From a virus, in the IMG/VR virus record IMGVR_UViG_3300005530_000011, positions 1 to 46,112 of that record: 46,112 nt of DNA; one strand, written 5' to 3'. A program made the translations under genes and the position numbers. Below the pieces are notes generated by a model. It saw nothing but the letters and a program-made list of their open reading frames with translations, did not search any database and was not told where the DNA came from. This document shows positions 1-27,007 of the stretch, piece by piece. Within the stretch, counting starts at the first letter, position 1. Each line of letters starts with the position of its first letter.

Positions 1-110
1 GGATGGCGGCCGAGGGGCTGGCGCGCGCCTCCAAGGGGACGCTGAAGACCGGTCGGATCTTCGGTCACAAGGTCCCCTTCACGCGCGACGCGAGCGGCGC
101 GAACCTGACC
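1..110. repeat. Terminal direct repeat, left copy (circular assembly overlap)
   Basis: The first 110 bases are identical to 46003-46112. The repeat lies inside one long open frame and the frame is kept across the junction. This is what an assembler produces when a circular or circularly permuted molecule is opened at an arbitrary point. A true short terminal repeat lying within a coding region is possible but less likely. Confidence 0.95.
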
Positions 111-10338: not shown

Positions 10339-10339
10339 G

Positions 10340-13942: not shown

Positions 13943-14697
13943 GCCGCGAGCCGAAGATCCGCTACGCGCCCAAGAGCGCGGACGGCGAGCGGCGCTGGTG
14001 CAACAAGTGCGGGCGGATGATGCTCGTGCCCGACGAGATCAAGCCGCTCGGGCGCCGCTGCTTCGCCTGCCAGGCCGAGACCAAGGACGAATACTGGAAG
14101 AGCTACTACGCCGAGAACCGGCAGAAGCAGCTCGACTATCAGGCCGCCTATCGCGAGGCGCACCGCGAGGAGATCAACGCCTACCAGCGCGAGTACGCCG
14201 CTCGTCATCGCGAGGAGGCGCGCGAGAAGGCGCGCCAGTGGTACTACGCCAACCGCGAACGCCACAAGGCCCGCACGGCCGCGTACCGGCAGGCGAACCC
14301 CGAGCGCCAAGCCGAGTGGGTGCGGCGCTGGTACGCCAACAAGCTCAGGACCAAGGCGGGGCGTCTGAGCTATCTCGAAGACAGCCGGATGCGCTCGCGT
14401 CTGAACGCCGAGCGCAACGGCCGAGAACTAACGCCGGTTCCGCTCGACGAGTACCGCGAGCGCTACGGCGGCGACAACCACCACGTCCAGGTGCCGCTCG
14501 CGCCGCTGCTGCCGTACGTCAAGGCGGCCTACGAGGAGCTGGGCTCGGTCGAGCTGGCCAGGCTCGCTGGCACCTCAGACAAGCGCGTCATGGAGATGAT
14601 CCGAGGCGACCGCGACGAGATCTCCCTGCCCGTCGCCGACGCGCTGTGCACGCACTTCGAGCTGCCGTTCTCGTGGCTCTACCAGGACGTCGCCTGA
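13939..14697 (+). CDS. Zinc-ribbon plus Arg/Tyr repeat plus C-terminal HTH protein
   Basis: This 252-aa product has three parts. Residues 20-45 form a zinc ribbon (CNKCGRMM and CFACQAET). Residues 50-145 carry a repeated YxxNRxxxxxxxxxYRxA pattern of basic amphipathic helices (KSYYAENRQKQLDYQAAY, QWYYANRERHKARTAAYR). The C-terminus has an XRE-like HTH (ELARLAGTSDKRVMEMIRGD). Such basic Tyr/Asn/Arg repeats occur in phage nuclease-like and DNA-binding proteins, but no nuclease residues were identified. It overlaps the previous stop as ATGA and is the last gene before the integrase promoter. Confidence 0.65.
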   Translation: MSREPKIRYAPKSADGERRWCNKCGRMMLVPDEIKPLGRRCFACQAETKDEYWKSYYAENRQKQLDYQAAYREAHREEINAYQREYAARHREEAREKARQWYYANRERHKARTAAYRQANPERQAEWVRRWYANKLRTKAGRLSYLEDSRMRSRLNAERNGRELTPVPLDEYRERYGGDNHHVQVPLAPLLPYVKAAYEELGSVELARLAGTSDKRVMEMIRGDRDEISLPVADALCTHFELPFSWLYQDVA

Positions 14698-14728
14698 TGC
14701 ACACGACGGGGCGGATATGACCGACTTT

Positions 14729-14790
14729 TGCCAAAGTGTGCGGATCTCGTGCTACCGTGGCACTCCCTGCCGGGGGCAAGCGACCCCGGC
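14729..14790 (+). promoter_or_regulatory. Integrase promoter and leader hairpin
   Basis: TTGCCA (near 14731) and TACCGT (near 14756) with a spacer of about 19 nt form a plausible promoter. It is followed by the hairpin GCCGGGG (14769-14775) / CCCCGGC (14784-14790), which lies 6 nt before the start-associated sequence of the integrase. The same hairpin stem precedes the AAA+ ATPase gene on the minus strand. Confidence 0.45.
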
Positions 14791-14796
14791 GCCAAG

Positions 14797-14810
14797 CGAA
14801 GGGAGAACAC
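14797..14810 (+). promoter_or_regulatory. Start-associated sequence (SAS) of integrase
   Basis: CGAAGGGAGAACAC directly precedes the integrase ATG. This is the only + strand copy. It matches, over more bases than a ribosome site needs, the sequences before the minus-strand genes at 20426, 22260, 23293, 24180 and 25678, with close variants at 19739, 21548, 22699 and 25392. Confidence 0.8.
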
Positions 14811-15986
14811 ATGGCTCGTAAGGCCAAGCTCGACCGCAACATGCGGTACACGCCGAGCGGGGCGATCGCGCTCCAGTTCACGGTTCACGGCCAGCGCACG
14901 ACCGGGCAGAAGATCCTCCCGACCGAGCCCGCCAGCTACGACACGCTGACGGCCGCACGCGCAGGCAAGCGGCGCGTCGAGGCGCACCTGGAGGAGGCGG
15001 TCAACCGGGAGGCGACGGTCGGCGGCTTCTTCGAGCGCTGGACCGATGTCGACGACCCCGACTGGGGTCCGAACGGCAACGAGTGCCCCCAGCGCTCAGA
15101 CCACACGATCTACACCTATGCCAGCCACGTCCGCGCGTTCGTGGCCATGTTCGAGCACCGCACCCTCGCGTCGATCTCAGACGCGGACCTGCGCGCCTAC
15201 CGCGCGTCGGCGAGCTACACCGCCTCGCAGATGAAGCCGATCGGCACGTTCCTGGAGAACGCGAAGACGGCGGGCCTGCGCAGCGGCGTGAACCCGGCCG
15301 CGCCGTACGCGAAGAAGGCCGGGGCGCAGCTCGCCTTCCGGCGCCGCAACAAGAAGGGCAAGGGCGACCGGCCGCCGGTGCCGCCCGCCGAGCTGATCGA
15401 GGCGATGCTCGCGCACGCCCGCCGACCCGGATACCCTCGCGGCTTCTACGGGTGGCTGCTGACCGGCGTCCGCACGGGCCTGCGCTCGGGCGAGATCGAC
15501 GGCATGGAGTTCGAGTTCCTGGACGGCGACGTCTACGACGTCCAGTACCAGCTCCACTACCGGACGCGCACGATGGACATCCCCAAGCACGACAGCCGCC
15601 GCAAGATCCACATCCCGTCAGACGTGCGGCTGGAGATCGACGCGGCCCGCGCGCTGGCGGGCGAGGGCGAGCGGTACATCTGGCTCAACAGCCGCTGCGA
15701 CCCGTGGGGCGAGTCGGCGCGCATCAAGTGGTGGACCAAGCAGGTCGACGGGCGCTCGCTGTGCGAGATCGCGGGCGGCATCACGATGTACGAGGCGACG
15801 CGCCACTACTGGGCGAGCTGGGCCGTCAACGCGGGCGGCCTGTCGCCGTACATCGCGTCGATCCTGATGGGCCACAGCGACGGCGGCGCGACGCTGATGG
15901 AGCACTACGTCAACAAGGACGAGGACAACGCGGTGCGCGCGGCGGCGGACGCCATGCGCAGCGCTCAGCAGCGGAAGGCCGCGTAG
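14811..15986 (+). CDS. int: Tyrosine-family integrase
   Basis: The product is 391 aa, a usual length for phage tyrosine integrases. The ATG at 14811 is fixed by the SAS directly upstream. Residues 1-60 resemble an arm-binding domain, 65-170 a core-binding SAM-like domain, and the catalytic domain follows. Visible catalytic elements are the first Arg in TGLRSGEIDGM (near residue 225), the second Arg in ATRHYWASW (near 331), His in LMGHSDGG (near 355) and the Tyr nucleophile in EHYVN (near 366). The His of the usual HxxR box is replaced, apparently by Glu. It integrates the phage at a host att site; the attP-like region follows directly. Confidence 0.9.
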   Translation: MARKAKLDRNMRYTPSGAIALQFTVHGQRTTGQKILPTEPASYDTLTAARAGKRRVEAHLEEAVNREATVGGFFERWTDVDDPDWGPNGNECPQRSDHTIYTYASHVRAFVAMFEHRTLASISDADLRAYRASASYTASQMKPIGTFLENAKTAGLRSGVNPAAPYAKKAGAQLAFRRRNKKGKGDRPPVPPAELIEAMLAHARRPGYPRGFYGWLLTGVRTGLRSGEIDGMEFEFLDGDVYDVQYQLHYRTRTMDIPKHDSRRKIHIPSDVRLEIDAARALAGEGERYIWLNSRCDPWGESARIKWWTKQVDGRSLCEIAGGITMYEATRHYWASWAVNAGGLSPYIASILMGHSDGGATLMEHYVNKDEDNAVRAAADAMRSAQQRKAA

Positions 15987-16428
15987 TACCGAGCGCACAC
16001 CGGATCGCACACGGACCATGCCAAACCCCCAGCACAGAGCCAAAGGCGCCGGAACCAGAAGGTCCGCTGACCTAGGTCCAGCGCTTACGTCGGGTGCTCA
16101 GACGCGCCCGACGTTTACGGCTCTGTGCCGTCGATCCCGGGCCCTTCGCCCACTCAGAAAGCCGGAGTCTCGCGCCGCTGCGGGGTTCCGGCTTTCGTCG
16201 TTCCGGGGTGCACATCGCACACGCAATCGCACACGGCGGGGTCGTAGCCCTCCCTCGTCTGAGCGACAACCTCGCCGGAGCGAGAAGCCAGGTAGCCGGG
16301 CCGGTCAGGGACCCGGGGCGCTGGGAGAGCCGCTCAGTCGAGGGAGATACCTCCGAGAGTAACCGCCGTGGGGGGTTTGGGGGGCTTCCTTGTCCAGAAC
16401 TTCAACACCGCATCGAGGGAGTGGGTCT
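15987..16428. other. attP-like region with integrase arm-type repeats and a terminator
   Basis: This gene-free stretch follows the integrase. ATCGCACACGG-like 11-mers occur at 16004-16014, 16214-16224 and 16226-16236, with a related GAGCGCACACCGG at 15991-16003. They thus flank about 200 bp, as integrase arm sites flank a core. Between them lies TCGATCCCGGGCCCTTCGCC followed by CAC, which resembles a tRNA 3-prime end running into a terminator. Core and crossover cannot be fixed without the bacterial attB. The rest, 16240-16428, shows G-rich runs but no gene. Confidence 0.55.
16157..16196 (+). terminator. Terminator downstream of integrase
   Basis: GAAAGCCGGA (16157-16166) and TCCGGCTTTC (16187-16196) form a perfect 10-bp stem with a 20-nt loop. 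The A-rich left and T-rich right ends make it bidirectional. It may have been carried in with the att site. Confidence 0.65.
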
Positions 16429-16791
16429 GTGAGTAGTGTCAGCAGCTACGCGCCGGGACAGACCGGCAACGCCTGCATCGTGTGCTGGCGGTCGCCGACC
16501 GATCGAGCCCACGTCATCGACCGGAGCTTGGCTCCCGATCCGCATGGCGACCCGGCGCGCGTCGTGTTCCTGTGCCGCGAGCACCACGACGCCTACGACG
16601 CGCACGAGCTGGACATCCTCGCCGAGCTGGAGCGCTGGCACCGGCATGAGCTGGCGCGCGGCGTCGAGCTGGTCGGCCTGCTGGCCACCCTTCAGCGCGT
16701 GACCGGCAAGACCTGGGTCCCGGTCGAGAGTTCTGAGCCGACCGTCATCGCGGTCGGCGGCGGTTACGGCCGGGGCGCGGCGCATGTCTGA
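16429..16791 (+). CDS. HNH-type nuclease-like protein
   Basis: This 120-aa product starts with GTG at 16429, placed 8 nt after GAGGGAG; the frame is open upstream without a ribosome site. The core has CIVCWRSPTDRAHVIDRSLA and FLCREHHDAYDAHELD, which give the Cys pair, a central His and the closing CxxHH of HNH folds. HNH proteins nick or cut DNA, and in phages many support packaging or act as homing nucleases. Here it lies beside the att region and starts a new gene block, away from the terminase. Confidence 0.65.
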   Translation: MSSVSSYAPGQTGNACIVCWRSPTDRAHVIDRSLAPDPHGDPARVVFLCREHHDAYDAHELDILAELERWHRHELARGVELVGLLATLQRVTGKTWVPVESSEPTVIAVGGGYGRGAAHV

Positions 16792-17299
16792 GCTGCGACA
16801 GATCGTCGTCGGCTACGCGCTGCTCCAGTACGGCACGACGCAGCGCTTCGGGCGCAACATCAAGGGCGCCGAGCCGATGCCGCTCCCGGCGGGCGAGGGC
16901 TTCCCGCCGATGGAGCACTGGATCATGCTGCTCACCCGCTGCCAGACGGTCGAGGAGTGCCACACGATCCTGGAGCTGGCGTCGGCCGAGCTGCAGGCGT
17001 GGCGCAAGCGACCCGAGCCGCCGCCGGAGGGCGAGAGCTTCGACGAGCTGAAGCGCCGCATCCTGCGCGACGGCCAGGGCTGGACGCCGAAGGAGGTGGC
17101 GCTCGCGATGCGCGTGACGCCGACGCTCGTGCGCAACGTGCGCACGGAGGCGGACCGCGACCCCGAGTACGGGCGCCCGGACGGCTCGCTGCGGCACGGC
17201 CTGACGCTGCTGTCTGAGGGTCTGAGCCTGCGGCAGGTCGAGCGGATCACGGGCATCCCGAAGTCGACGCTGCACGACGCTCAGAAAGCGGCGGCATGA
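16784..17299 (+). CDS. Putative transcription regulator with two HTH segments
   Basis: This 171-aa product overlaps the HNH gene by 8 nt. Two consecutive helix-turn-helix-like segments are visible in the C-terminal half: WTPKEVALAMRVTPTLVRNV and LSLRQVERITGIPKSTLHDA. The tandem layout resembles sigma-region-4-like or activator domains. It could be a regulator of middle or late genes. This is inference from the HTH segments and operon position. Confidence 0.55.
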   Translation: MSELRQIVVGYALLQYGTTQRFGRNIKGAEPMPLPAGEGFPPMEHWIMLLTRCQTVEECHTILELASAELQAWRKRPEPPPEGESFDELKRRILRDGQGWTPKEVALAMRVTPTLVRNVRTEADRDPEYGRPDGSLRHGLTLLSEGLSLRQVERITGIPKSTLHDAQKAAA

Positions 17300-17760
17300 G
17301 TAGGACAGCAGACCCGGATCTTGCTAGCCTGTCCGGAGCTGCCCTAGGCCCCTGCCCTGACGCCTCCGATCACCCTCGGACGTCTGACGGGGAGACCGGG
17401 GCGGCGCCTTCTCGCCGCTCCGTGATCTTCCAGTACGAGCGGCTGATCCGGCCCTTCCCGATCCGTCGTCTGACCGACGTCACGCACCCCGTGCGCAACC
17501 ACGCGGGGGTGATCGGGGGCATGATCTTCGACCTTCAGCTCGATCCGCCGCGCCTGCCCGAAGTGTGGTGGGGCGAGCTGCAGCGGATCATCGGCGAGCT
17601 GCTGACGCTGCGCGACGAGATCGACGAGCTGATCCCGAAGCTGATGGAGATGCAGGACGACGCGGACCGTCAGTTCGAGGTGGCCCTGGACGCGCTCGTG
17701 GCCATGATGCGCGGGCTCAGGGAGGGGGACGACGATGATCTGCCCGACGTGTCTGGGTGA
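17296..17760 (+). CDS. Early protein, function unknown
   Basis: This 154-aa product has a disordered Ser/Pro/Asp-rich N-terminus (residues 1-42), a central beta-like part (FQYERLIRPFPIRRLTDVTH) and a C-terminal helical half (LQRIIGELLTLRDEIDELIP, FEVALDALVAMMRGL) ending in an acidic tail. It overlaps the previous gene by ATGA and the next by 26 nt. No family was recognised. Confidence 0.55.
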   Translation: MSRTADPDLASLSGAALGPCPDASDHPRTSDGETGAAPSRRSVIFQYERLIRPFPIRRLTDVTHPVRNHAGVIGGMIFDLQLDPPRLPEVWWGELQRIIGELLTLRDEIDELIPKLMEMQDDADRQFEVALDALVAMMRGLREGDDDDLPDVSG

Positions 17761-17941
17761 GGGCGAGATCCGCTTCAACCGGAGCTGGCCGCTCGATCCC
17801 CAGTGCGACGACACGGCCCGCTGTCACACCTGCCGTGGCGAGGGGGTCATCGATGGGCGGATGGCTGCTGTTCTTCGTCGTCTGCTGGGCGGCGATCGTG
17901 ACGATCGTCATCGTGCTCCTGAGCAACCGCCGCTGAGGTGA
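17735..17941 (+). CDS. DnaJ-like zinc-finger small protein
   Basis: This 68-aa product has two CxxCxGxG motifs (CPTCLGEG and CHTCRGEG), the repeat unit of DnaJ-type zinc fingers. It starts inside the end of the previous gene. Its C-terminal 27 codons overlap a membrane peptide frame at 17853 and, on the other strand, the end of the gene at 17847. The zinc motif part is convincing; the Arg-rich tail may simply be read through. Confidence 0.6.
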   Translation: MICPTCLGEGEIRFNRSWPLDPQCDDTARCHTCRGEGVIDGRMAAVLRRLLGGDRDDRHRAPEQPPLR

Positions 17942-18092
17942 TCGCGTCCAGCACCGTCTGAGCGGCGACCGTGGCCTCGACGACGATCGGCACCGTCCAG
18001 CGCTGATCCTCGCGCCGGTGCCCACAGATGAACGGGAACACGGCGTGTGCGCCGCAGGTCATGCAGACGTCGATGATGTACGTCCGTCTCAC
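17847..18092 (-). CDS. Small Cys/His protein, last gene of minus operon
   Basis: This 81-aa product starts with GTG at 18092 overlapping the previous stop (GTGA). The N-terminal half is protein-like, with CMTCGAH and CGHRRED suggesting a zinc site. The last 30 residues (HDDDRHDRR and onward) are low complexity and lie antisense to the + strand genes at 17735 and 17853. Convergent overlap of about 95 bp without a terminator is unusual. Confidence 0.55.
   Translation of the reverse strand: MRRTYIIDVCMTCGAHAVFPFICGHRREDQRWTVPIVVEATVAAQTVLDAITSAAVAQEHDDDRHDRRPADDEEQQPSAHR
17853..17936 (+). CDS. 27-aa nested membrane peptide
   Basis: The frame starts with ATG 6 nt after GAGGGGG and encodes MGGWLLFFVVCWAAIVTIVI followed by VLLSNRR, a single hydrophobic helix with a positive C-terminal end. 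It lies wholly within the end of the zinc-finger gene in another frame. The good ribosome site and clean membrane topology suggest a real microprotein, but its size means it could be chance. Confidence 0.45.
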   Translation: MGGWLLFFVVCWAAIVTIVIVLLSNRR

Positions 18093-18331
18093 GCCGAGCA
18101 GCCCGGGCAGTGATCGACGAACCCGTTGCGCAGGTCGCCGCTCGTCGTCCAGCCGCTCAGATCGGGCGTACCTGCCCTCAGATCGAGCGTCAGATCGCAG
18201 CCGTCGCACGAGATGCAGGCGAGGAAATCCTCCGGCTTCCAGCCGTTTACGTAGCTCTGGCCGAGCGCTTGGAAGGCGAGGATCGCGACGCGCTGCGCCA
18301 GCACCTGCTCCGTCAGATCGGCCCAGATCAC
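18089..18331 (-). CDS. Small putative zinc protein
   Basis: This 80-aa product has Cys pairs in ISCDGC and HCPGC about 35 residues apart, a likely zinc ribbon. The GTG at 18331 overlaps the previous stop as GTGA and its stop overlaps the next start the same way. The function is unknown. Confidence 0.6.
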   Translation of the reverse strand: MIWADLTEQVLAQRVAILAFQALGQSYVNGWKPEDFLACISCDGCDLTLDLRAGTPDLSGWTTSGDLRNGFVDHCPGCSA

Positions 18332-18651
18332 GTCATCAGTCCCTCAGATCGCATCTGCTCGTCGAGCTTACGCGCCGTCGTCCACGCCTCGTCGTCGACT
18401 TGCCCCGGCGCGGCGGCGTCGATCTCGCGCAGGATCTGCTCGTGCGTCTCGCCGTACATGACGGTGAGCTGGAGCAACTGAGGGGGCATGTCGGCCATCC
18501 GCTCGGCGTCGTGCCTGAACGCCTCCACGAGCATCTGGCCGAGCGGCACAAGCATCGGCTGCCCGGCCTGCAGCTTGCGGACGTTCGCGTCCACGACTCC
18601 GACGCAGATCACCTTGCCGCCATCGGCGAGATCCAACACGCACCGGATCAT
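18328..18651 (-). CDS. Small protein, function unknown
   Basis: This 107-aa product is called from the ATG at 18651, just behind GAGGGAGGG; a longer frame reaches 18690 without a ribosome site. It begins MIRCVLDLADGGKVICVGVV (beta-like) and continues as charged helices (QLLQLTVMYGETHEQILREI). No family was recognised. A GC-rich hairpin with GGCGCC arms lies about 40 nt upstream. Confidence 0.6.
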   Translation of the reverse strand: MIRCVLDLADGGKVICVGVVDANVRKLQAGQPMLVPLGQMLVEAFRHDAERMADMPPQLLQLTVMYGETHEQILREIDAAAPGQVDDEAWTTARKLDEQMRSEGLMT

Positions 18652-18742
18652 CTGCCCTCCCTCACTAGCCAGCCCAAGAGACGGCGCCACCAGGGGCGCC
18701 GGTGGCCGCCCGTCAACGTGTAGTCCAACGGACGGCGCATCG

Positions 18743-19207
18743 CTAGTGCCCGTGCTGCCGCCGCTTGATCCCGTAGCGGTACTCGCGGTCGAGCAGCTTG
18801 CTCGTGCCGTTCATCGACTCCATGCGGGCGGTCAGCGCGCGCGTGGTCATCAGCAGCTCGCCCAGGTTGGCCTTGGCGAGCCGGTCCTGCTGGGCCTTGG
18901 TGAGCTTGCCGACCGCGAGCGAGAGACCAAGCGGGGTGAGCTTCCAGCCGCGCTGCTTGGTCACCATGCCTTCGTTCTCGGCGTCGCGCAGCGTGCGCTC
19001 GCGCATCTCGCCGCGCTCCAGTGCGCCGTAGCGCACGAGCCAGGACAGCCGCGAGGCGACGGCGCGGTGCGGGTGCTCGCCTCCTAGGTCGAGCTGAGTC
19101 GCCACGTCGTCGGCGTAGGCGTAGCCCTCGCCGTCAGACACATCACGGATCACGAGCAGGACTTCCCGGTCTGAGATGTCCAGCAGGGTGAGCGCTTCAA
19201 GACTCAT
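18743..19207 (-). CDS. Winged-helix DNA-binding protein
   Basis: This 154-aa product looks like a winged helix: SDREVLLVIRDVSDGEGYAY, then DDVATQLDLGGEHPHRAVAS, RLSWLVRYGALER and GWKLTPLGLSLA. It starts 11 nt inside the end of the gene at 19197, which is also a winged-helix candidate, so the two may act as a pair. MarR/PadR-like regulators share this layout, but no close family is claimed. Confidence 0.65.
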   Translation of the reverse strand: MSLEALTLLDISDREVLLVIRDVSDGEGYAYADDVATQLDLGGEHPHRAVASRLSWLVRYGALERGEMRERTLRDAENEGMVTKQRGWKLTPLGLSLAVGKLTKAQQDRLAKANLGELLMTTRALTARMESMNGTSKLLDREYRYGIKRRQHGH

Positions 19208-19739
19208 TCGGCATGACCTCGTACGCGTTGGGCCGCTTGCCCTTCACGGGCGAGCCGTCCTCGTAGCTGAGCTGCTTGACGCCGGTCAGACGCACGCGGC
19301 CCTCGTTGCGCAGCGCCGCCACAGCGGAGTGCAGCGACGTGTCGCCGACGTCGGTCAGCTCTTCGGCCATCCGCATCTCGGGCACGGTGGTCGGCTCGGT
19401 CTGACGCTTGAGGTACGCGTAGATCCGCTCGACGGTCTCCTCAGAGACCTTGTCGTACTTCGCGGTCCCCGGCTTGGCGGCGCTCTGCCGTGACGCCTTG
19501 CGGGTGGGCGCGGTGAGGTGCTTCGGGAGCCTGCCGGTCAGCGCCTCGATAGCGGCGTTGATCCGTAGCTCGTCGGCGCTCAGATCAGAAAGCTCGGCTT
19601 CGAGTTGCGCCTTACGCGCCTCGATCGGACCGAGCATGTCTTCGAGCGACTGAGCCTGTGCGGCGAGCCGTTCCTCGACGGTGAGCGCGAGTGCTTCGGC
19701 AGCCTCCGGGGCGTGGCTGCCGTTCAGCGTGGCGGACAA
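19197..19739 (-). CDS. Coiled-coil plus winged-helix regulator, TTG start
   Basis: This 180-aa product starts at TTG 19739 behind a variant of the start-associated sequence (CGAAGGGAGGAC). Residues 20-65 are a coiled coil (VEERLAAQAQSLEDMLGPIE and onward). The C-terminal half (VERIYAYLKRQTEPTTVPEM, then TSLHSAVAALRNEGRVRLTG) is a winged helix. It has its own promoter candidate just upstream and is coupled to the gene at 18743. It is a likely transcription regulator within the operon. Confidence 0.65.
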   Translation of the reverse strand: MSATLNGSHAPEAAEALALTVEERLAAQAQSLEDMLGPIEARKAQLEAELSDLSADELRINAAIEALTGRLPKHLTAPTRKASRQSAAKPGTAKYDKVSEETVERIYAYLKRQTEPTTVPEMRMAEELTDVGDTSLHSAVAALRNEGRVRLTGVKQLSYEDGSPVKGKRPNAYEVMPNES

Positions 19740-19770
19740 GGGGTCCTCCCTTCGAGTGGTACTGCCTGAG

Positions 19771-19808
19771 TGAGCGGGACTATAGACATGGATCGGACGG
19801 AAAGGTCA
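19771..19808 (-). promoter_or_regulatory. Internal promoter of minus operon
   Basis: On the minus strand TGACCT (19808-19803) and TATAGT (19784-19779) are 18 nt apart. The -10 box is the best sigma-70-type match in this operon. The start point would be about 30 nt upstream of the TTG of the gene at 19739. Confidence 0.55.
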
Positions 19809-19828
19809 CTAGCGGCAAGATCCGGACT

Positions 19829-20113
19829 TCACGGCGGGTCGACTTCTTCGATCAGTCCGAGGCGATCCGCGAGCTGCAGAGGAGTCGTCGGGTACCGCTC
19901 GAAGAAGCCGCGACAGACCGCGTGCTCCTCGCCGTCGAGCGTCTTGTGGCAGACGATCGCGCCGTCGTTGCCCTTCGCCTCGTCGACCATGCCGCGCACG
20001 CGGCCGGAGCGCAGCTCCATCAGGTTGCCCGGCCGGAAGATGCACGTCGAGCACATCTCCCGGCAGACGTGGATGCGGCCGTCGCGGTAGATCTGATGCT
20101 TACGCTTGGCCAT
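19829..20113 (-). CDS. Cysteine-rich protein of a type common in actinobacteria and their phages
   Basis: This 94-aa product has four to five Cys in the pattern CREMCSTCIFRPGN, then IVCHKTL, then AVCRGFF. I have seen this arrangement in uncharacterised actinobacterial and actinophage proteins; a metal or iron-sulfur site is likely. It overlaps the previous gene by 14 nt. The function is unknown. Confidence 0.65.
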   Translation of the reverse strand: MAKRKHQIYRDGRIHVCREMCSTCIFRPGNLMELRSGRVRGMVDEAKGNDGAIVCHKTLDGEEHAVCRGFFERYPTTPLQLADRLGLIEEVDPP

Positions 20114-20426
20114 TCAGGATCTCGTAGACGCGGCTGGACTTCAGACCGAACCAGCGGGCGATCGTCGGCCCGCTGATCCCGGTGCCCCTGATGTGGCGCA
20201 CCATGTCGTTCATCTGAGCCCGCGTGACGGCCTGCGCGTCGATCGCGGCGTCACGCGCCGCGCGCACGCGGCGCACCGCCTCCGGCGCGTCGTCGCCGCG
20301 CCGCGCCATCGCGACCAGCTCGCGGTCAGATGGCAGCTCCGGCATCTGGGTCAGCTCAGTGACCAGCTCCAGCGGGAGCGCGTCCACGACGCGCTCCCAC
20401 GTCTCGTCAGACAGGTTGAGGATCAT
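20100..20426 (-). CDS. Small helix-turn-helix protein with SAS
   Basis: This 108-aa product starts at the ATG at 20426, 4 nt after CGAAGGGAGAACA; the frame is open to 20654 but that extension is antisense-like and was rejected. The C-terminus (GISGPTIARWFGLKSSRVYE followed by ILNG) is a helix-turn-helix like those of resolvases and small terminases. The N-terminal half is acidic and helical. It is probably a DNA-binding regulator. Confidence 0.65.
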   Translation of the reverse strand: MILNLSDETWERVVDALPLELVTELTQMPELPSDRELVAMARRGDDAPEAVRRVRAARDAAIDAQAVTRAQMNDMVRHIRGTGISGPTIARWFGLKSSRVYEILNGQA

Positions 20427-20443
20427 GGGGTGTTCTCCCTTCG

Positions 20444-20563
20444 TTAGATCAGATGGATGATCGTCACCACGACGAGCGCGATGACGTACAGGTCGACCAG
20501 CACTTCTCCGAACCACCAGGCGCCGAACAGCACGGCGCCCAGACCGGCACAGATCAGCAGCAT
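20444..20563 (-). CDS. 39-aa membrane protein
   Basis: The ATG at 20563 has GGGAG 7 nt upstream. The peptide (MLLICAGLGAVLFGAWWFGE, then VLVDLYVIALVVVTIIHLI) has two short hydrophobic segments or one long one, with Trp at the interface. Its TAA lies directly before the start-associated sequence of the next gene. It is shorter than usual gene-finder limits. The function is unknown. Confidence 0.55.
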   Translation of the reverse strand: MLLICAGLGAVLFGAWWFGEVLVDLYVIALVVVTIIHLI

Positions 20564-20608
20564 CTACACTCCCTCGGGCATCGGTGGAATGTTCTCCCTT
20601 CGGTGTAC

Positions 20609-20652
20609 GAGGGCCCGGCACCGCCTCGCTAGCGGACTGATGCCGGGCCCTC
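20609..20652 (-). terminator. Large hairpin upstream of SAS copy
   Basis: GAGGGCCCGGCA and TGCCGGGCCCTC form a perfect 12-bp stem around a 20-nt loop that itself can pair CCGC with GCGG. It lies 13 nt after the stop of the gene at 20666, and a start-associated sequence (20602-20590) follows. There is no T-run, so termination is uncertain; a processing or attenuation role is equally possible. Confidence 0.55.
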
Positions 20653-20665
20653 ACTTGTTCTGAGA

Positions 20666-20887
20666 TCAGCCGCCCAGATCAGCGGCGCGGGCGGCTTCCT
20701 GCCCGGCGATCTCGATCCGCGACAGCACGTCGTGGTACTTGGCCGCCGCCTCAGCCAGCGCGGGCGCCATCGCGGAGGTGGCCTCCTTCGCCGCCTCCTC
20801 GCAGTCGCGGGCGACGTTGGCCAGCGCGGTGCGCACCGTCCACTCGTCGTCCTCGGTCAGATGCACAGCCCAGCTCGGGACGCTCAC
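20666..20887 (-). CDS. Small helical protein, function unknown
   Basis: This 73-aa product is called from GTG 20887, which overlaps the previous stop as GTGA; the longer frame to 21148 is a shadow. It is almost fully helical and Ala/Glu-rich (DCEEAAKEATSAMAPALAEA). No family was recognised. Confidence 0.55.
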   Translation of the reverse strand: MSVPSWAVHLTEDDEWTVRTALANVARDCEEAAKEATSAMAPALAEAAAKYHDVLSRIEIAGQEAARAADLGG

Positions 20888-21207
20888 TTCAGCCACCCTG
20901 CGACGTACAGGTAGCCGTGGCTGCCCTGCGCGTTGCCGACGATGCGGCCGGTCTCGTCCTCGTACAGGACGTGCTCGTAGTTCTGCTGCGGGAACATGCG
21001 CCAGCTCTTGGCGAGCGCCGCCGCCTCGGCGAGGGCGGCCCTGACCGCGCCGCCGTTGAGCCACGCGATCAGACGGTCCTTGGCGGGACCGGCGATGTCT
21101 TGCCGGTCGTGCACCATGTCGTTCGGGTAGATCCAGCGCGCGCCCCACGCGGTGTCGACCTCGTCGGGGATCGCGCGGACGGCGCCGAAGCTGAGCGTCA
21201 CGCTCAT
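20884..21207 (-). CDS. Small protein, function unknown
   Basis: This 107-aa product is called from ATG 21207, overlapping the previous stop as ATGA. Its centre contains WGARWIYPNDMVHD and its C-terminus YEDETGRIVGNAQGSHGYLY, beta-rich and aromatic. No domain was recognised. Confidence 0.55.
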   Translation of the reverse strand: MSVTLSFGAVRAIPDEVDTAWGARWIYPNDMVHDRQDIAGPAKDRLIAWLNGGAVRAALAEAAALAKSWRMFPQQNYEHVLYEDETGRIVGNAQGSHGYLYVAGWLK

Positions 21208-21548
21208 CCGCGCATCCAGTCGCGCACGCGGACGGCGCGGTAGGCGCCGTCCGTGGTGTGCAGCTCGTAGTTGAAGCTCTCGCTCAGCGCGAGCGCGTCG
21301 GCCGTGGTGACGAGCACCTTCTTGCCGGTGATCCTGTCTCCGTGCAGCGTCGGCGCCATGATGACCGGCACCAGCGCCGTGCCGTCGTTGCCGATCTGAA
21401 TCGGCGACTGGCGGTCCAGCCAGATCAGACCGTCGTCGGTCCGGTCGGGGTTCTCGCCCGACTCGTCCGCGATGAACACGCGGTCGACGCTCGGCTCGGT
21501 GAACAGACGGTGCCCACCGGGCAGCGTCTCCAACAGCTTCCAGCTCAT
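21204..21548 (-). CDS. Small beta-rich protein with SAS
   Basis: This 114-aa product is fixed by the start-associated sequence (CGAAGGGAGAACGC) directly before ATG 21548; the frame extends upstream without signal. It alternates short strands (HRLFTEPSVDRVFIADESGE, GLIWLDRQSPIQIGNDG). The function is unknown. A conserved hairpin element precedes it at 21573-21623. Confidence 0.6.
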   Translation of the reverse strand: MSWKLLETLPGGHRLFTEPSVDRVFIADESGENPDRTDDGLIWLDRQSPIQIGNDGTALVPVIMAPTLHGDRITGKKVLVTTADALALSESFNYELHTTDGAYRAVRVRDWMRG

Positions 21549-21572
21549 GCGTTCTCCCTTCGCTACGTGGCG

Positions 21573-21623
21573 GGATTGCCACTGGACAGCGGCGCGCAGG
21601 TGCACGCCGCTCTCCGGTAGCCC
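21573..21623 (-). repeat. Conserved hairpin element, copy 1
   Basis: On the minus strand GGGCTACCGGAG and GTCCAGTGGCAATCC enclose an inner stem AGCGGCG/CGCCGCT. The outer parts GCTACCGGA and TCCAGTGGC also pair with one mismatch and one wobble. The outer arms are identical to those at 22282-22333, while the inner stem differs in sequence yet still pairs. It lies between the stop of the gene at 21629 and the SAS of the gene at 21548. Confidence 0.7.
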
Positions 21624-21628
21624 GTCCC

Positions 21629-21895
21629 TCAGTCCTGCGTCGTCAGATGCTCGTAGAAGGCCCGCATCTGAGTCGCGGCGTCCTCCCAGGTCCGGGCCGT
21701 GATCGCGTACTCGTCGCGCAGCGCCTTGACCGTTGGGTGCAGCTTGCCGACGCTCGGCAGGAACATCCCGTGCTTGGCCTTGAACTCTGCGTTCTGCGTG
21801 TGCACGAGCATCCGCAGCAGGTTGAGCGTGCGCACCTTGCCGTCCGGGAACTGCACCCGGACGTCGGCGCTCGGAAGGTTGCCAATCGTCGGCAT
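21629..21895 (-). CDS. Small protein, function unknown
   Basis: This 88-aa product is called from ATG 21895, which shares TAATG with the previous stop and has GGAGGA 9 nt upstream; the GTG at 21901 would be too close to that site. The core reads PSADVRVQFPDGKVRTLNLL then MRAFYEHL. No family was recognised. Confidence 0.55.
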   Translation of the reverse strand: MPTIGNLPSADVRVQFPDGKVRTLNLLRMLVHTQNAEFKAKHGMFLPSVGKLHPTVKALRDEYAITARTWEDAATQMRAFYEHLTTQD

Positions 21896-22260
21896 TACCA
21901 CGTCTCCTCCTTGACGATGTTCCCGGCCTCGTCCATGACGATCAGGCCGCCCATCGGCAGCCCGAACGGCTTGGCGTGCTCGCCGAAGACCAGCTCGCCG
22001 AGCTGATCGCAGTACACCTGCTCCAGCTCGCGACGCTCGCCGCGCTGGAAGATCACGACCGAGTACAGATCCGGACCCGGCAGGTACGTGACGTGCGCGT
22101 CGAGCGAGCGCTCGTCGTTGGGCTCAGACGGCAGCACGCGCACCAGCAGCGTGTCCCCACGCAGCGGCGCCATGCCGACGTCCTTGCCCGGCGTCAGATC
22201 GGCGGGCAGCATCGAATCGAGCTGCGCGCAGATCGTCTGATGAACCTCGTTCGGTTCCAT
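21895..22260 (-). CDS. Small protein with SAS, function unknown
   Basis: This 121-aa product starts at ATG 22260 directly behind GAAGGGAGAACAC. It contains AQLDSMLPADLTPGKDVGMA and a beta-rich centre (LDAHVTYLPGPDLYSVVIFQ). The C-terminus FGLPMGGLIVMDEAGNIVKE resembles immunity-like or adaptor folds only superficially. The function is unknown. Confidence 0.6.
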   Translation of the reverse strand: MEPNEVHQTICAQLDSMLPADLTPGKDVGMAPLRGDTLLVRVLPSEPNDERSLDAHVTYLPGPDLYSVVIFQRGERRELEQVYCDQLGELVFGEHAKPFGLPMGGLIVMDEAGNIVKEETW

Positions 22261-22281
22261 GTGTTCTCCCTTCTAGCGGCA

Positions 22282-22333
22282 GGATTGCCACTGGACGGCG
22301 TCGCCGCAACGCGACGGCGCCCTCCGGTAGCCC
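22282..22333 (-). repeat. Conserved hairpin element, copy 2
   Basis: The outer arms GGGCTACCGGAG and GTCCAGTGGCAATCC are the same as in copy 1 (21573-21623), with a different inner stem that still pairs (GGCGCCGTC with GGCGACGCC). It lies 1-2 nt after the stop of the gene at 22335 and directly before the SAS of the gene at 22260. Confidence 0.7.
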
Positions 22334-22334
22334 A

Positions 22335-22523
22335 TCAAGCCAGGTCGGCGAGCACGGCCGCCAGCGCGATGCTGGCGACCGTCAGACCGAACAGGATCGG
22401 CGTGTAGCCCTTCGCTCGCGCGAAGCCCTCGTCATCGGCGTCGTAGCGGTACCAGCCGAACGAGGCAAGGTGCAGCACGAGCGGCAGCACGGCCGCGACG
22501 AGCACGACCCACGAGGGGGTCAC
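22335..22523 (-). CDS. Two-helix membrane protein
   Basis: This 62-aa product has transmembrane segments at about residues 5-23 (WVVLVAAVLPLVLHLA) and 43-60 (ILFGLTVASIALAAVLA), joined by a charged loop with YRYDADDEGFARAKGY. GTG 22523 overlaps the previous stop as GTGA. It could be a superinfection-exclusion or other moron-type membrane protein, inferred from topology only. Confidence 0.6.
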   Translation of the reverse strand: MTPSWVVLVAAVLPLVLHLASFGWYRYDADDEGFARAKGYTPILFGLTVASIALAAVLADLA

Positions 22524-22699
22524 CAGATCCGCTCCGTCGTGCCGCCGCCGGTGATCTCGAACTCGCCGTCCTCCATGACGACTTTCAGATCGGCGCCGAC
22601 GCCCGGCTTGGAGATCGTCACGGCGCCCTCCTCGTCATCGTCGATGCGGTTCAGCAGCTCGCACAGAGCGCGCGCCTGCTCGTAGCTCATGTTGAGCAT
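22520..22699 (-). CDS. 59-aa acidic protein with SAS
   Basis: ATG 22699 is preceded by CGAAGGGAGACACG, a close variant of the start-associated sequence. The product (MLNMSYEQARALCELLNRID, then a DDEE cluster and beta strands ending GGTTERIW) is coupled by GTGA to the membrane protein that follows. The function is unknown. Confidence 0.6.
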   Translation of the reverse strand: MLNMSYEQARALCELLNRIDDDEEGAVTISKPGVGADLKVVMEDGEFEITGGGTTERIW

Positions 22700-22713
22700 C
22701 GTGTCTCCCTTCG

Positions 22714-22899
22714 TCAGACCAGCCGGAGCTGATCGGGGTTCTTGCTTGGAGCGGGCATCCAGCCCTCGTACATCTCGTACGTCTCGAACAGGCCCGTCTG
22801 CTCGTTGAGCCAGACGTTGCCCTGCGTCTGAGCCTTCGTGAAGGCCCGCGCGGAGGCGGCCAGCGCCGCCTCGCCCTTGCGCTTCAGCTCAGACGTCAC
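22714..22899 (-). CDS. Small protein, function unknown
   Basis: This 61-aa product starts at GTG 22899 overlapping the previous stop. It is helical at first (KRKGEAALAASARAFTKAQT) and ends with YEMYEGWMPAPSKNPDQLRL. No family was recognised. Confidence 0.55.
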   Translation of the reverse strand: MTSELKRKGEAALAASARAFTKAQTQGNVWLNEQTGLFETYEMYEGWMPAPSKNPDQLRLV

Positions 22900-23084
22900 T
22901 GCGGGAAGGTCTCCAGGTGGAAGACCTCGCCGAGCGCGGCCGTCTGCGTGCCGTAGCCGAAGATCTCGACGTCCATCGGCATCACCATGCTCCAGCGGGT
23001 CTCGCCGGTGCGCAGCATCGCCAACGGCGGAAGCGCCATCAGCGCCTCCACGGCGGCGTTCTCGCGCCGCTTGTCATCGCTCAT
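22896..23084 (-). CDS. Small protein, function unknown
   Basis: This 62-aa product starts at ATG 23084 (ATGA overlap); GTG 23090 is an alternative. It contains AAVEALMALPPLAMLRTGET and VEIFGYGTQTAALGEVFHLE. It is coupled to the genes on both sides. The function is unknown. Confidence 0.55.
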   Translation of the reverse strand: MSDDKRRENAAVEALMALPPLAMLRTGETRWSMVMPMDVEIFGYGTQTAALGEVFHLETFPQ

Positions 23085-23293
23085 CCCCACAGCGACGTCG
23101 ACCCCTCAGACGAGATCGCGTAGCGCTGCTGCTCGCCGTCACGAGTGACGATCGAGATCACGAGGAAGCCCTCGGGATAGGGGTTGTCGAGCGAGTCGCG
23201 GCGCGACAACTGGACGGACGTGACGAACCCGGGCGAGTCGATGTTGCGCACGAGCGCTTCGACCTCCTGCTCGTTGAGCGTCAGATAGTCCAT
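23081..23293 (-). CDS. Small protein with SAS, function unknown
   Basis: This 70-aa product starts at ATG 23293 behind GAAGGGAGAACAC. It has an acidic helix (YLTLNEQEVEALVRNIDS) and a beta-rich remainder (GFLVISIVTRDGEQQRYAIS). Two short hairpins precede the SAS. The function is unknown. Confidence 0.6.
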   Translation of the reverse strand: MDYLTLNEQEVEALVRNIDSPGFVTSVQLSRRDSLDNPYPEGFLVISIVTRDGEQQRYAISSEGSTSLWG

Positions 23294-23342
23294 GTGTTCT
23301 CCCTTCAGACGCTGATTTCGGCCCTCCATAGGCCATCGTCAG

Positions 23343-23402
23343 GACCCCGGCTAGGGGTCGATCAGCAGCGGCGCGAGCCGCGCTCTCAGATCGAGAGCGC
23401 GG
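23343..23402 (-). terminator. Hairpin pair at the end of the vWA-like gene
   Basis: CCGCGCTCTC and GAGAGCGCGG (23378-23402) form a perfect 10-bp stem with a 5-nt loop that spans the stop codon of the gene at 23386. A second stem, GACCCC/GGGGTC (23343-23359), follows downstream on the minus strand. No T-run is present, so partial termination or mRNA-end protection is a guess. Confidence 0.5.
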
Positions 23403-24180
23403 CCAGCTTGCCGTCCATCATCTCCCTGGGGAAGTGGCGAGCGTGCGCGTGGCACGCGACCGTCAGGACCCGCGCCTCCTCATCGAAGCGCAGATCCCAG
23501 CCGGGCGCGATCGACGCGCCCATCGAGCGGTGGCATCGCACGCCATGCTCGCGGCAGCACATCATCCGCGCCGTGAAGCCCAGCATCCGGTACCCGGCGG
23601 GGCTGAAGAGCGCCCCCCAGGACTTCAGCGAGGAGCGCTTGCCGAACCGCTTGACGCGGATCTCGGTGGAGACCTTGCGGCCCTCCATCGTGACGTCTGA
23701 GAAGACGTCGATCTGCAGGTCAAAGCTCTGACCCTGCAGACCGGCGATCAGCTCCGCGACCCACTGGCCATAGTCGGCCAGCACGGACGCCGGGACGTCG
23801 GCGAGGAAGTTGAACTGGAGCCGCAGCGTCACACCTGCCTGACGCTTGCGTTTGTCGCGCCTCAGATACGGGCGATCGTCGCCCTGCAGCATCAGCTCGA
23901 CGTCCAGATCGCCGTCGAAATCGTTCCGGCGGATCTTGGCGCGGTCGATGACCGGCCGTCCCGGCTTGACGTCCATGCCGGGAGCGATGAAGCCGTTGTC
24001 CACCCAGCCCGTCATGTCCGCGACGCGCGCCCCGTAGAACTCCGGACGCGTCCGCCAACCGGCGAGCTGAACGTCATACGGCTGCCCGACGAGCTTGCGC
24101 CCGTCGTGGCACAGTGCGCGCCACGTCTGAGCTACTTCGTCGTAGCCCATCGTGTGCGAGATCGCACCCTTGGTAGCCAT
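23386..24180 (-). CDS. Probable vWA-like partner of the AAA+ ATPase
   Basis: This 264-aa product starts at ATG 24180 behind a perfect SAS. The middle (GVTLRLQFNFLADVPASVLA, then YGQWVAELIAGLQG, then SFDLQIDVFSDV) follows the strand-helix-strand rhythm of a von Willebrand A domain, but the DxSxS metal site is not intact. Cys/His clusters follow (MMCCREHGVRCHRS, ACHAHARHF). It is directly downstream of a MoxR/CobS-type ATPase, and MoxR ATPases usually work with a vWA protein, which supports the pairing. The client could be a host enzyme, a virion complex or a defence system; nothing in the sequence decides this. Confidence 0.5.
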   Translation of the reverse strand: MATKGAISHTMGYDEVAQTWRALCHDGRKLVGQPYDVQLAGWRTRPEFYGARVADMTGWVDNGFIAPGMDVKPGRPVIDRAKIRRNDFDGDLDVELMLQGDDRPYLRRDKRKRQAGVTLRLQFNFLADVPASVLADYGQWVAELIAGLQGQSFDLQIDVFSDVTMEGRKVSTEIRVKRFGKRSSLKSWGALFSPAGYRMLGFTARMMCCREHGVRCHRSMGASIAPGWDLRFDEEARVLTVACHAHARHFPREMMDGKLAALSI

Positions 24181-24202
24181 GTGTTCTCCCTTCGTTGTGG
24201 CT

Positions 24203-24257
24203 AGGAGACGGCCGGGAATCGGACCCGGCTGGCGCGCCCCCGTAGGGGCGCGCCTCC
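24203..24257 (-). other. tRNA-like double hairpin between ATPase and vWA-like genes
   Basis: On the minus strand GGAGGCG and CGTCTCC can pair as a 7-bp acceptor-like stem. Between them lie a hairpin CGCCCC-TAC-GGGGGCG and a T-arm-like hairpin GCCGGGTCCGATTCCCGGC. There is no room for D and anticodon arms, and the loop has C where tRNAs have the second U. It may be a tRNA-like structure, a relic, or two adjoining hairpins. Confidence 0.35.
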
Positions 24258-24264
24258 CTGCGCC

Positions 24265-25392
24265 TCAGACGCTCGCGTTGGCGAGCGCTACAGCGTCCTC
24301 CACACGTTCGTCGTAGCGGATGTGCGCACGGCCCATCCGCAGGCGATCGAAGGTGGAGAAGTCGAACGGGTTACGGGCGTTGTACTGCCGATCGGCGCCC
24401 GTGCCGTCCGTGTTGCCCGCGAAGATCAGGATCGTCTCAGACGACTTCATGTAGGTCTCCTGATCGACCGGATTGTCAAGCCGCTCGTTCGCGAGCGGCC
24501 CGTTCATGACCAGCAGCATGTTCGGGTCTGCGGCGTCCGCCTCATCGAAGAGGTACACGCCGCCGTCCCGCCAAATCTTCAGCAGCTTGGTCGGCTTGAA
24601 GCCCTGAGCGTCCACGCGGCCGAGGAGCCACGAGACGGTTGCGCCTTCCGTCATCGGCGTGAAGCCGAAATCCACCCCGCGTAGCTCCGCGAGCTGTTCG
24701 GCCCAGTAGGACTTGCCCATGCCCGCCGGACCGTAGAGGTAGATCGCCACCCGGGCCCGCACGAGGCAGTCCAGATAGGCGTCCATCCCGCCGGGGTGGT
24801 CGGTCATGGGATCGTAGGCGCGGATGCCCGCCTGACGGCGGTCCGCGTCATCCCAGTGCATCGTCATCGCGTGCACGCATCCCTCAACTGAGATGCCCGC
24901 CGCGATCATCCGCATGCCGTCCTTGACGGGACGGTAGGAGATGTGGTCGATGTCACGGTCCGTCGCGAAGGCCCGCAACCGGCGGACCTCCGCGAGAAAG
25001 CGCGTCTGAGCCGCAGAAAGCCCGCCTGACGGCTTGGGAGCCGCCGGGGCAGGCTTCGGCTTGGGTGCCGCCACGGGCGCCGCAGACGGCGTTTCCGTGA
25101 CCGTGCCGCCCAGTGACTCGCAGATGTAGGCGTGAACCTCGTACGCGAAGCGCACGAGCCGCTGATCGGCGATGTCCGGTGCGACGTCGACCCAGACGCC
25201 ATCCCGCTTGGTGCGGAAGACGATCGGTCGCTCACCCATACGCGGACGCAGAGCGTCCGCGACCGCCTCGCACGAGGCGCAATCGCGGCGCGAATGCGGC
25301 GCATGGGTCAGACCCAGCGTCGCGAACATGTCGCGATAGGCGCCCTGCTTGTGCGTGACAGCCCAGGACTGAAAATCACCGCTCAGCGGCAT
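24265..25392 (-). CDS. MoxR/CobS-type AAA+ ATPase
   Basis: This 375-aa product starts at ATG 25392, fixed by the start sequence GGAAGGGAGAACGG and a hairpin just upstream. The N-terminal 120 residues carry a possible zinc pair (CASC with an upstream His) and an Ala/Pro linker. The AAA+ core has Walker A GPAGMGKS (near residue 230), Walker B GGVYLFDEADAAD (near 280), the sensor-1 segment ILIFAGNTDGTG and an arginine-rich FDRLRMGR. This matches the MoxR/CobS branch, which remodels protein complexes together with vWA partners. The next gene is such a candidate partner. Confidence 0.75.
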   Translation of the reverse strand: MPLSGDFQSWAVTHKQGAYRDMFATLGLTHAPHSRRDCASCEAVADALRPRMGERPIVFRTKRDGVWVDVAPDIADQRLVRFAYEVHAYICESLGGTVTETPSAAPVAAPKPKPAPAAPKPSGGLSAAQTRFLAEVRRLRAFATDRDIDHISYRPVKDGMRMIAAGISVEGCVHAMTMHWDDADRRQAGIRAYDPMTDHPGGMDAYLDCLVRARVAIYLYGPAGMGKSYWAEQLAELRGVDFGFTPMTEGATVSWLLGRVDAQGFKPTKLLKIWRDGGVYLFDEADAADPNMLLVMNGPLANERLDNPVDQETYMKSSETILIFAGNTDGTGADRQYNARNPFDFSTFDRLRMGRAHIRYDERVEDAVALANASV

Positions 25393-25410
25393 TTTCCGTT
25401 CTCCCTTCCA

Positions 25411-25429
25411 GCCGGGGAGCAACCCCGGC
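25411..25429 (-). repeat. Leader hairpin of the AAA+ ATPase gene
   Basis: GCCGGGG and CCCCGGC pair around a 5-nt loop, a few bases upstream of the start-associated sequence. The stem is identical to the one before the integrase SAS (14769-14790), with a different loop. Confidence 0.6.
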
Positions 25430-25504
25430 CGTCGTGTGATCCTGCGCGAAACCGAGCAGGCGGCACGGCTCCCTGAGCGGGTAGCCGTCCCGTCCGACCG
25501 AATC

Positions 25505-25678
25505 TCAGATGTACGGATCGAAGCTCACGGCGTCCGACGTCCACCCTTCGGGTGCGTCGCATTCGTCGTCGCGCTTCAGATCGCGAGCGGCAGCCCGCGT
25601 CATCGCCCGATCGAAGGCCGCGAACAGGTCCGCGTGATCGGGGCTGGTCACCGCGTATTCGACGCCGTGAACGTGCAT
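25505..25678 (-). CDS. 57-aa protein with SAS, first gene of minus operon
   Basis: ATG 25678 is preceded by CGAAGGGAGAACACC. The product (MHVHGVEYAVTSPDHADLFA, then AFDRAMTRAAARDLKRDDE) is helical and charged with no recognised domain. It is the most upstream gene of the block that runs to 17847. Hairpins TCGCCGG/CCGGCGA and GCGCC/GGCGC lie upstream of its start sequence. Confidence 0.55.
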   Translation of the reverse strand: MHVHGVEYAVTSPDHADLFAAFDRAMTRAAARDLKRDDECDAPEGWTSDAVSFDPYI

Positions 25679-25694
25679 GGTGTTCTCCCTTCGT

Positions 25695-26286
25695 TGGTCT
25701 CGCCGGAGCTACCGGCGACGCGCCTACGGCGCAGTGGACGGGGGAGCATCGAAACTCGCCCTAGCGAGCCGCCCAGTCCGATCGGGCGCCGAAGCGCAGG
25801 TGATCGGGTGCGGCTCTCGCCCCGGAACTCAGTCGATCGACACGAGAAGCGGGAGAAGTGCCCTCGTGGATCTCGCAACGGTCGGCGTTGGGTCCCGACT
25901 CGCTCACGTAGTGAGGTGACCGTGGAGCTGCCCTCCACAGTGCTGCCATGACTAGGCCCGGTGCGTCACGACGGCTATACCGCCTTTCTGGTGCCACGAC
26001 AGGGGATTCATGCTGCCCTGCCTAGGCGACGCCCTGCATCCGGGGTCACGCTGCGCGGCGTCGATCGCCGCTATGTCAGCTCCGCTTCCCGCACCTTGCA
26101 GAGAGGCGGGGGAGCCGCTTCGGACCGATGTGGCGCTGCTCGTGCTGAGTCTGAGGCGCTGCGGTCCGGCTTGCCCATTCAGTAGAGCACGGGCACCGGG
26201 AACTCACAACCCCTTCCGGAAGAAATGGCGCACAAACACTCGGTCTGAGGTGTCTGAGATCGGCGGTCCCTACGGGAGGGAGGCGG
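25695..26286. other. Gene-free interval between divergent blocks
   Basis: About 590 bp separate the first minus-operon gene and the + gene at 26287. No frame in it reads like a protein. It contains short hairpins (25700-25732; CTCGCCCTAGCGAG near 25755) and a weak minus-strand promoter candidate (TATAGC near 25974). It probably holds the promoters of both blocks; a replication origin or packaging site cannot be excluded. Confidence 0.5.
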
Positions 26287-26715: not shown

Positions 26716-27007
26716 GCGAACGTCTGAGCTGAGGGAAGCGTTCTCACCGCCGAACGTAGTTCGCTGGTTACGTGCGTGGATCGCTCAGATCAACGACTTT
26801 TGGCTCTACAGCGCCGTTCCCCCGCCTTCCGTGTGCGGTCTGACGGCCGTTCGGACCCCGCCCACCCCCTTACGCCGCGCGTGAGGACCCGCCGCCGGAG
26901 CCATATATGGGGTCCCCCTCACGCACCCTCGTGGCGGACATAAAGTCCCTGCAAACCCACGGGCTGGAGGCGGCTGTATCGCTGTATGGCATGCAGCGAT
27001 ACGAGCT
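26716..27007. other. Intergenic region with two large palindromes
   Basis: A stem GCGTGAGG/CCTCACGC with an extension ACCC/GGGT lies at about 26876-26930. A 27-bp near-perfect palindrome lies at 26976-27002, with arms GTATCGCTG and CAGCGATAC and a centre around TATGGCATG. AT-rich patches (CATATATGG near 26902, ACATAAAG near 26939) stand out in this GC-rich genome. It may end the minus operon, or be a regulator or packaging site next to the candidate small terminase. Confidence 0.5.

Follow-up and report, generated by a model that had tools for sequence, protein, structure and literature searches.

Start-associated sequences (SASs) have been reported from some phages of actinobacteria, in clusters K, M and EF, and the literature still calls their role unknown. 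In cluster K the SAS reads GGGATAGGAGCCC (PMC3203893, PMC12699233), and about half of the copies are preceded by ESAS, a 17-bp inverted repeat of conserved sequence. The evidence there spoke against an mRNA hairpin (PMC3203893), and later work interpreted the repeat as a (putative) promoter (PMC11373665). Microbacterium phages of cluster EF carry an SAS/ESAS of the form GGGAAAGGACCCC (PMC7302621). The cluster M mycobacteriophages (e.g. Estes and Aziz) have repeats named CR3/CR4 with upstream stem-loops, and genes inserted there bring their own copy of the repeat, according to PMC7953290 (for the repeats citing Pope et al., 2014). T4-type phages possess promoter/stem-loop cassettes, PeSLs (Arbiol 2010 and Comeau 2014, as cited in PMC4503421). 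Here we describe a new SAS, conserved across phages and apparently outside clusters K, M and EF, in a soil phage (IMG/VR record IMGVR_UViG_3300005530_000011; 46,112 bp, 69% GC; the whole stretch is hereafter the window). As in SASs generally, a ~13-bp motif lies a few nucleotides before the starts of a subset of genes and in one orientation, is conserved beyond what could pair with the anti-Shine-Dalgarno (anti-SD) sequence, and recurs in related phages, also before non-homologous genes. Judging from sequence, we give a probability of roughly one half to the reading that the repeat acts in cis as a modular translation-start module of the SAS kind, placed behind mRNA hairpins.

The window is probably a complete phage genome, because its first and last 110 bp are identical. 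Its late genes are oriented rightward. Some 20 small, mostly unidentified genes form a leftward operon at 18089-25678 on the minus strand, and a tyrosine integrase gene headed by the SAS lies at 14811-15986 on the plus strand (PHROG integrase match 1.2e-20); gene numbers are those of the gene calling made in this analysis. The SAS has an 11-mer core, GAAGGGAGAAC, and the consensus CGAAGGGAGAACAC in the window. At no more than one mismatch the core occurs 10 times, compared with 0.54 expected from shuffles (0 of 100 shuffles reached 10 copies, and the maximum was 3), which rules out a chance repeat. These 10 copies comprise nine gene starts and the site at 20602, the tenth start, 22699, being served by the variant GAAGGGAGACACG. 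The 14-mer stands out less when three mismatches are allowed (10 observed vs 4.7), and the significance therefore resides in the 11-mer core. When about 80 gene starts were scored in a leave-one-out matrix scan, the ten SAS starts were the ten best of all (8.4-24.9 bits), and the best other start reached 7.1 bits. The original prediction, made from the letters of the window alone, had listed ten start-proximal copies plus the one at 20602; all of them are present, the last without an adjacent start codon, and the other plus-strand genes indeed lack the full motif. The nearest resemblance among these is AAGGAGAACCG-ATG at 36954, at the late gene start 36963, so that the SAS spacer is not wholly exclusive; equal matches before most late genes, which we looked for across the gene starts, were not found. 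The sole further GAAGGGAG (positions 0 to 7 of the element) in the window, at 6837 (-), is away from any start, and gene 32 (start 18651, -) carries a degenerate GAGGGAGGGCAG.

Two relatives show which parts of the element are frozen. The contig L008 is one of four viral contigs retrieved by a pattern search for CGAAGGGAGAACACATG; it encodes homologs of gene 48 (58%) and gene 49 (52%) and has the SAS at two places, before the gene 48 homolog and before a small gene that precedes the gene 49 homolog (the gene 50 position). The second, G008 (18.6 kb), was found by terminase alignment and is syntenic with the window, the integrases being 46% identical. It carries the SAS at seven of the seven SAS starts with a detectable counterpart (the integrase, genes 34, 36, 42, 44 and 48, and the gene 47 position), and also at the place of the copy without a start codon and at the position of gene 32, while window genes without an SAS lack the full motif in G008 too, gene 66 having there only GAAGGGAGGCC. 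Across ten orthologous pairs the SAS was 99% identical at positions 0..7, 87% at 8..10 (AAC) and 96% over positions 0-10, figures inflated in the core by the fact that some pairs were found via the motif itself, although most sites are starts orthologous by protein similarity. The flanks were at about background, with 26% at -30..-11, 30% at -10..-4 and 30% at 11..12. The predicted anti-SD duplex spans GAAGGGAG only and AAC cannot pair with 16S rRNA, so the proposal that the element is longer than a ribosome-site match withstood the comparison, and conservation is not confined to the Shine-Dalgarno (SD) core.

Orthologous copies span phages at roughly 30-65% protein identity, and the element is also kept in relatives where the genes behind it differ. 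At the gene 47 position in G008 it stands before a 19-amino-acid (aa) membrane-type open reading frame (ORF) instead of gene 47, and in L029/L030, L031 and L033 three non-homologous leftward genes near the terminase begin with GAAGGGAGA. Scans with two motif variants returned 3 and 16 contigs outside the clade. Since each matched locus there holds one copy, such isolated copies look like ordinary ribosome-binding sites (RBSs), and multi-copy use looks like a feature of this phage group. The contig of a further relative, G001 (34 kb), ends before the SAS region. Used alone as queries, the integrase and gene 48 retrieved no relatives among viral contigs, window 14000-26500 as DNA had no match in the phage collection, and alignments of gene 48 and the terminase to bacterial genomes found nothing. 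L008 (1-7705) likewise has the start of the SAS operon close to its terminase, although the short genes that separate the two are not those of the window.

Most SAS copies are directly preceded by one or two GC-rich stem-loops, which the original prediction had missed. In predicted folding the 60-mers upstream of the window sites were more stable than their shuffles, with a mean z of -2.4, compared with -0.3 for other gene starts (P 8e-4), and the 22 sites of three phages a mean z of -2.0 vs -0.8 for random operon 60-mers (P 0.003). The stem sequences vary from copy to copy. Upstream of the start-less copy, where the whole element extends over about 20650-20603, the outer 11-bp stem shows one fully compensated pair (G-C to C-G) between the window and G008, and the upper stem-loop has been rebuilt. 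The copies at 21562 and 22274 have a diverged 27-bp duplicate upstream (D19, 89%), in which the first stem differs with pairing kept; apart from this pair, the copies share nothing upstream. The SAS stretch itself is predicted to be more open than other starts (0.55 vs 0.38, P 0.001). Rfam gave no match at gathering score and below it only insignificant ones, and no tRNA or transfer-messenger RNA genes were found.

The placement of the SAS follows the gene arrangement. It is present at 10 of the 12 leftward-operon genes with a gap upstream (with gene 37 counted on account of the start-less copy ahead of it) and at none of the eight overlapping genes (Fisher P 7e-4; gaps and overlaps were taken from the gene calls). 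At 20443 and 22713 it takes up most or all of the 14-17 nt gap between stop and start. The operon is thus split into about ten presumably coupled blocks, each with an SAS start, where translational coupling is deduced from gene overlap.

Site by site, the exact consensus on the plus strand (14797-14810) lies directly before the integrase ATG at 14811 and has an orthologous copy ahead of the G008 integrase. On the minus strand exact copies precede gene 50 (57 aa, start 25678; SAS 25693-25680), which heads the operon and whose site has an ortholog in L008, gene 48 (264 aa, start 24180; 24194-24181), with orthologs in L008 and G008, and gene 36 (helix-turn-helix (HTH), start 20426; 20443-20430), with the ortholog G008 6396. 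One-base variants, likewise on the minus strand, precede gene 47 (70 aa, start 23293; 23294-23307), where G008 has an SAS at the same place; gene 42 (start 22260; 22261-22274), after two stem-loops (ortholog G008 7957); and gene 40 (start 21548; 21549-21562), whose stem-loop region and that of 22274 are diverged duplicates and which is missing from G008 together with its SAS. The fourth one-base variant, at 20589-20602 (-), is the copy without an adjacent start codon; it follows a long stem-loop (z -6.6) and has an ortholog at G008 6438. Weaker minus-strand variants are GAAGGGAGAACGG at 25396-25409, just after a 9-bp stem-loop and before gene 49 (AAA_5 ATPase, start 25392), whose homolog in G008 is preceded by a degenerate GGGAGAAC; GAAGGGAGACACG at 22700-22713, which occupies the full 14 nt in front of gene 44 (start 22699; ortholog G008 8651); and GAAGGGAGGACCCC at 19741-19754, before the TTG start of gene 34 (19739), a site without a stem-loop, as is its ortholog at G008 5983, which likewise precedes a TTG. 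Behind the start-less SAS, 20563-20602 (-) contains a possible 5-codon leader ORF (ATG CCC GAG GGA GTG TAG), which runs right up to the gene 37 start codon.

On the observed sequence, positions, conservation, stem-loop excess and block rule we base a proposal for how the module might work through ribosome pairing, coupling and the hairpins. In the mRNA, GAAGGGAG would form an 8-nt duplex with the 16S rRNA 3' end (one G-U included), and the fixed spacer, AAC plus usually two bases, would set a distance of 5 nt to the start codon. Every copy would head a block of one to three overlapping genes that are probably coupled in translation, the intercistronic stem-loops would keep the SAS site apart from the preceding cistron, and the hairpins are most likely structured mRNA that undergoes processing, confers stability or causes partial termination. 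In this manner the blocks of the long transcript could each be translated independently and at a similar level, as could the integrase, which is transcribed separately.

Several observations weigh against such a module: (i) the 16S tail was assumed to be the usual actinobacterial one, which may not be that of the host; (ii) translation of a neighbouring gene does not account for the start-less copy (20602; G008 6438); (iii) the fourth base of every copy is a wobble G, which would be unexpected if ribosome pairing were the sole constraint, because A would pair at least as well, and some of the genome's genes that lack an SAS do have AAGGAG; (iv) a clear stem-loop is absent from gene 34 in both phages, from the G008 integrase, from G008 6396 (gene 36) and from L008 5536; and (v) the accessibility and hairpin tests are confounded, since SAS genes are in intergenic gaps.

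Room is left for a trans-acting regulator by the AAC, by the wobble G common to all copies and by the copy that has no start codon. In a dedicated regulon, GAAGGGAGAAC would be recognised by a protein or RNA of the phage or the host, which would switch the integrase and the operon jointly, through translation or mRNA stability. We regard this as possible though rather doubtful: AAC and the wobble G are kept although 16S pairing gains from neither, the start-less copy is conserved in two phages, and the core is surrounded by a genome-specific flavour (AACAC in the window, CCGAAGGGAGAACC in G008), as expected of sites co-evolving with a factor, but no candidate factor was found, outside the SAS copies no site in the genome matches the SAS complement in at least 11 of 14 positions, and single copies before ORFs of unrelated phages suggest that the sequence probably works as an ordinary RBS. 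A separate anti-SAS RNA encoded elsewhere in the genome was rejected on the same complementarity search. Improbable, in our view, is the specific combination in which one trans-acting regulator of translation or mRNA stability targets the SAS copies, tying integrase synthesis to the accessory operon, and the start-less stem-loop/SAS (20650-20589; G008 6438) is a regulatory RNA, either a decoy or, if read from the opposite strand, a small anti-SAS RNA with the long hairpin at its end. The idea of a single gene set, put forward in the original prediction, holds in that the element is restricted to that set, while the basis for describing it as lysogeny plus accessory genes is a single integrase together with the small genes of the operon.

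Descent and duplication could also have spread a plain strong RBS with no special function beyond, an explanation we consider unlikely. The duplicate shared by 21562 and 22274, the similar AAGGAGAACCG-ATG on the plus strand and the isolated copies elsewhere would fit it; yet the remaining copies have no common upstream sequence, the other autonomous genes of the genome have different SDs, and the core is frozen between phages whose integrases have diverged as far as those of the window and G008, whereas RBSs normally drift freely.

The stem-loop and SAS might instead form a composite cassette in which the stem-loop terminates transcription from upstream and a promoter starts it anew, as in the PeSLs of T4, each a promoter plus a stem-loop (named in PMC4503421), or in the cluster K ESAS, which in Adephagia holds SigA-like promoters (PMC11373665). 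Long GC-rich stem-loops in the gaps are compatible with such a cassette, but the 1-17 nt between stem-loop and SAS are too short for a promoter, no U-tracts were found at the SAS stem-loops, and a scan of 14600-27100, of low power at 69% GC, found no sigma-70-like site, so that promoter and terminator roles are less likely and the cassette as a whole very improbable. Least credible is a recombination boundary, a cassette joint for gene gain and loss, as suggested by gene 40 with its own stem-loop and SAS, by the exchange of gene 47 behind the same SAS and by the absence from G008 of gene 37, which lies between two SAS copies, since 11 bp are short for homologous exchange, the strand-specific start position and AAC-N2-ATG geometry would be unnecessary for it, and cassette behaviour is probably a consequence rather than the function. 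Integron-like attC cassettes were rejected as well, inspection having revealed no R'/R'' core sites.

The surroundings of the operon contain several further features. A gene for an HTH protein, DNA-binding or terminase-small-subunit-like, lies at 26287-26715 (+), divergent from the SAS operon; the about 600 bp between them (25694-26286) are apparently non-coding and probably contain the promoter of the operon. The AAA_5 (CobS/MoxR-like) ATPase gene 49 (24265-25392, -; G008 10047-10763, -) seems to have permuted domains, the AAA part being encoded in G008 ahead of the domain that is N-terminal in the window. It adjoins gene 48 (23386-24180, -) in three phages; the gene 48 product has no match in Pfam or PHROG, and its predicted structure (pLDDT, the predicted local distance difference test, of 53) is too poor for a structure search. 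In the gene 48 leader, immediately upstream of the SAS, there is a tRNA-like element (window 24196-24245, -; L008 6850-6885, +; G008 9970-10020, -) with an acceptor-like stem and a T-arm hairpin bearing a T-loop-like UUCGACU/UCCGAUU. Its stems differ yet pair in the three phages, it has no D or anticodon arm, and ARAGORN and Rfam were negative, so it is no recognisable tRNA. A probably non-coding stretch at 27008-27040 (+) contains the tRNA 3'-end-like GCGGTTCGACTCCCCCTCGCGCACC, possibly a tRNA remnant or an attachment-site-like sequence.

Among the known systems, T4-type PeSLs resemble the window locus in being stem-loop regulatory units between small accessory genes, tied to gene shuffling, but they contain early promoters. 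To our knowledge, no repeat at the RBS position accompanies them. Cluster EF has ten repeated motifs at the RBS position with a linked upstream element, as here, but of another sequence and with an upstream element centred on a conserved GTAGAG rather than stem-loops. With cluster K, to which the original prediction pointed, the window shares a ~13-bp motif at RBS positions in a subset of genes that have large gaps upstream, conservation reaching past the anti-SD match, a preference for ATG starts and an extra upstream element. However, the SAS sequence is different (CGAAGGGAGAACAC vs GGGATAGGAGCCC), as that prediction had already said, and the window stems differ between copies, so that sequence and the nature of the upstream element rule out membership of cluster K.

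Of the known systems, cluster M rather than cluster K comes closest. We examined phage Estes, whose leftward genes carry tandem stem-loops (mean z -4.2) and then (CACAC)GGAGAAGGGA at the start, 12-14 copies or close variants lying just before starts; from its position and the description in PMC7953290 we infer that this motif is the published CR3/CR4. Estes and the window share a leftward block of small genes near the integrase, a repeat before the starts, one or two sequence-divergent stem-loops right upstream of it and the core GAAGGGA, and in cluster M, as here, inserted genes carry their own copy. Outside GAAGGGA the sequences differ, the serine integrase of Estes has no repeat copy whereas the tyrosine integrase of the window is headed by the SAS, and, unlike in cluster M, no tRNA genes were found in the window. 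Window proteins had no significant match in the right third of Estes, which gives no sign of phylogenetic membership, and the window element would thus work like CR3/CR4 without belonging to cluster M. What the window adds is comparative evidence of a type mostly lacking for the other clusters: it separates frozen parts (GAAGGGAGAAC and the 5-nt spacing) from drifting ones, shows stems that change sequence with pairing kept, and includes a conserved copy without a start codon; it also yields specific predictions that can be tested in the laboratory-tractable cluster M analogue.

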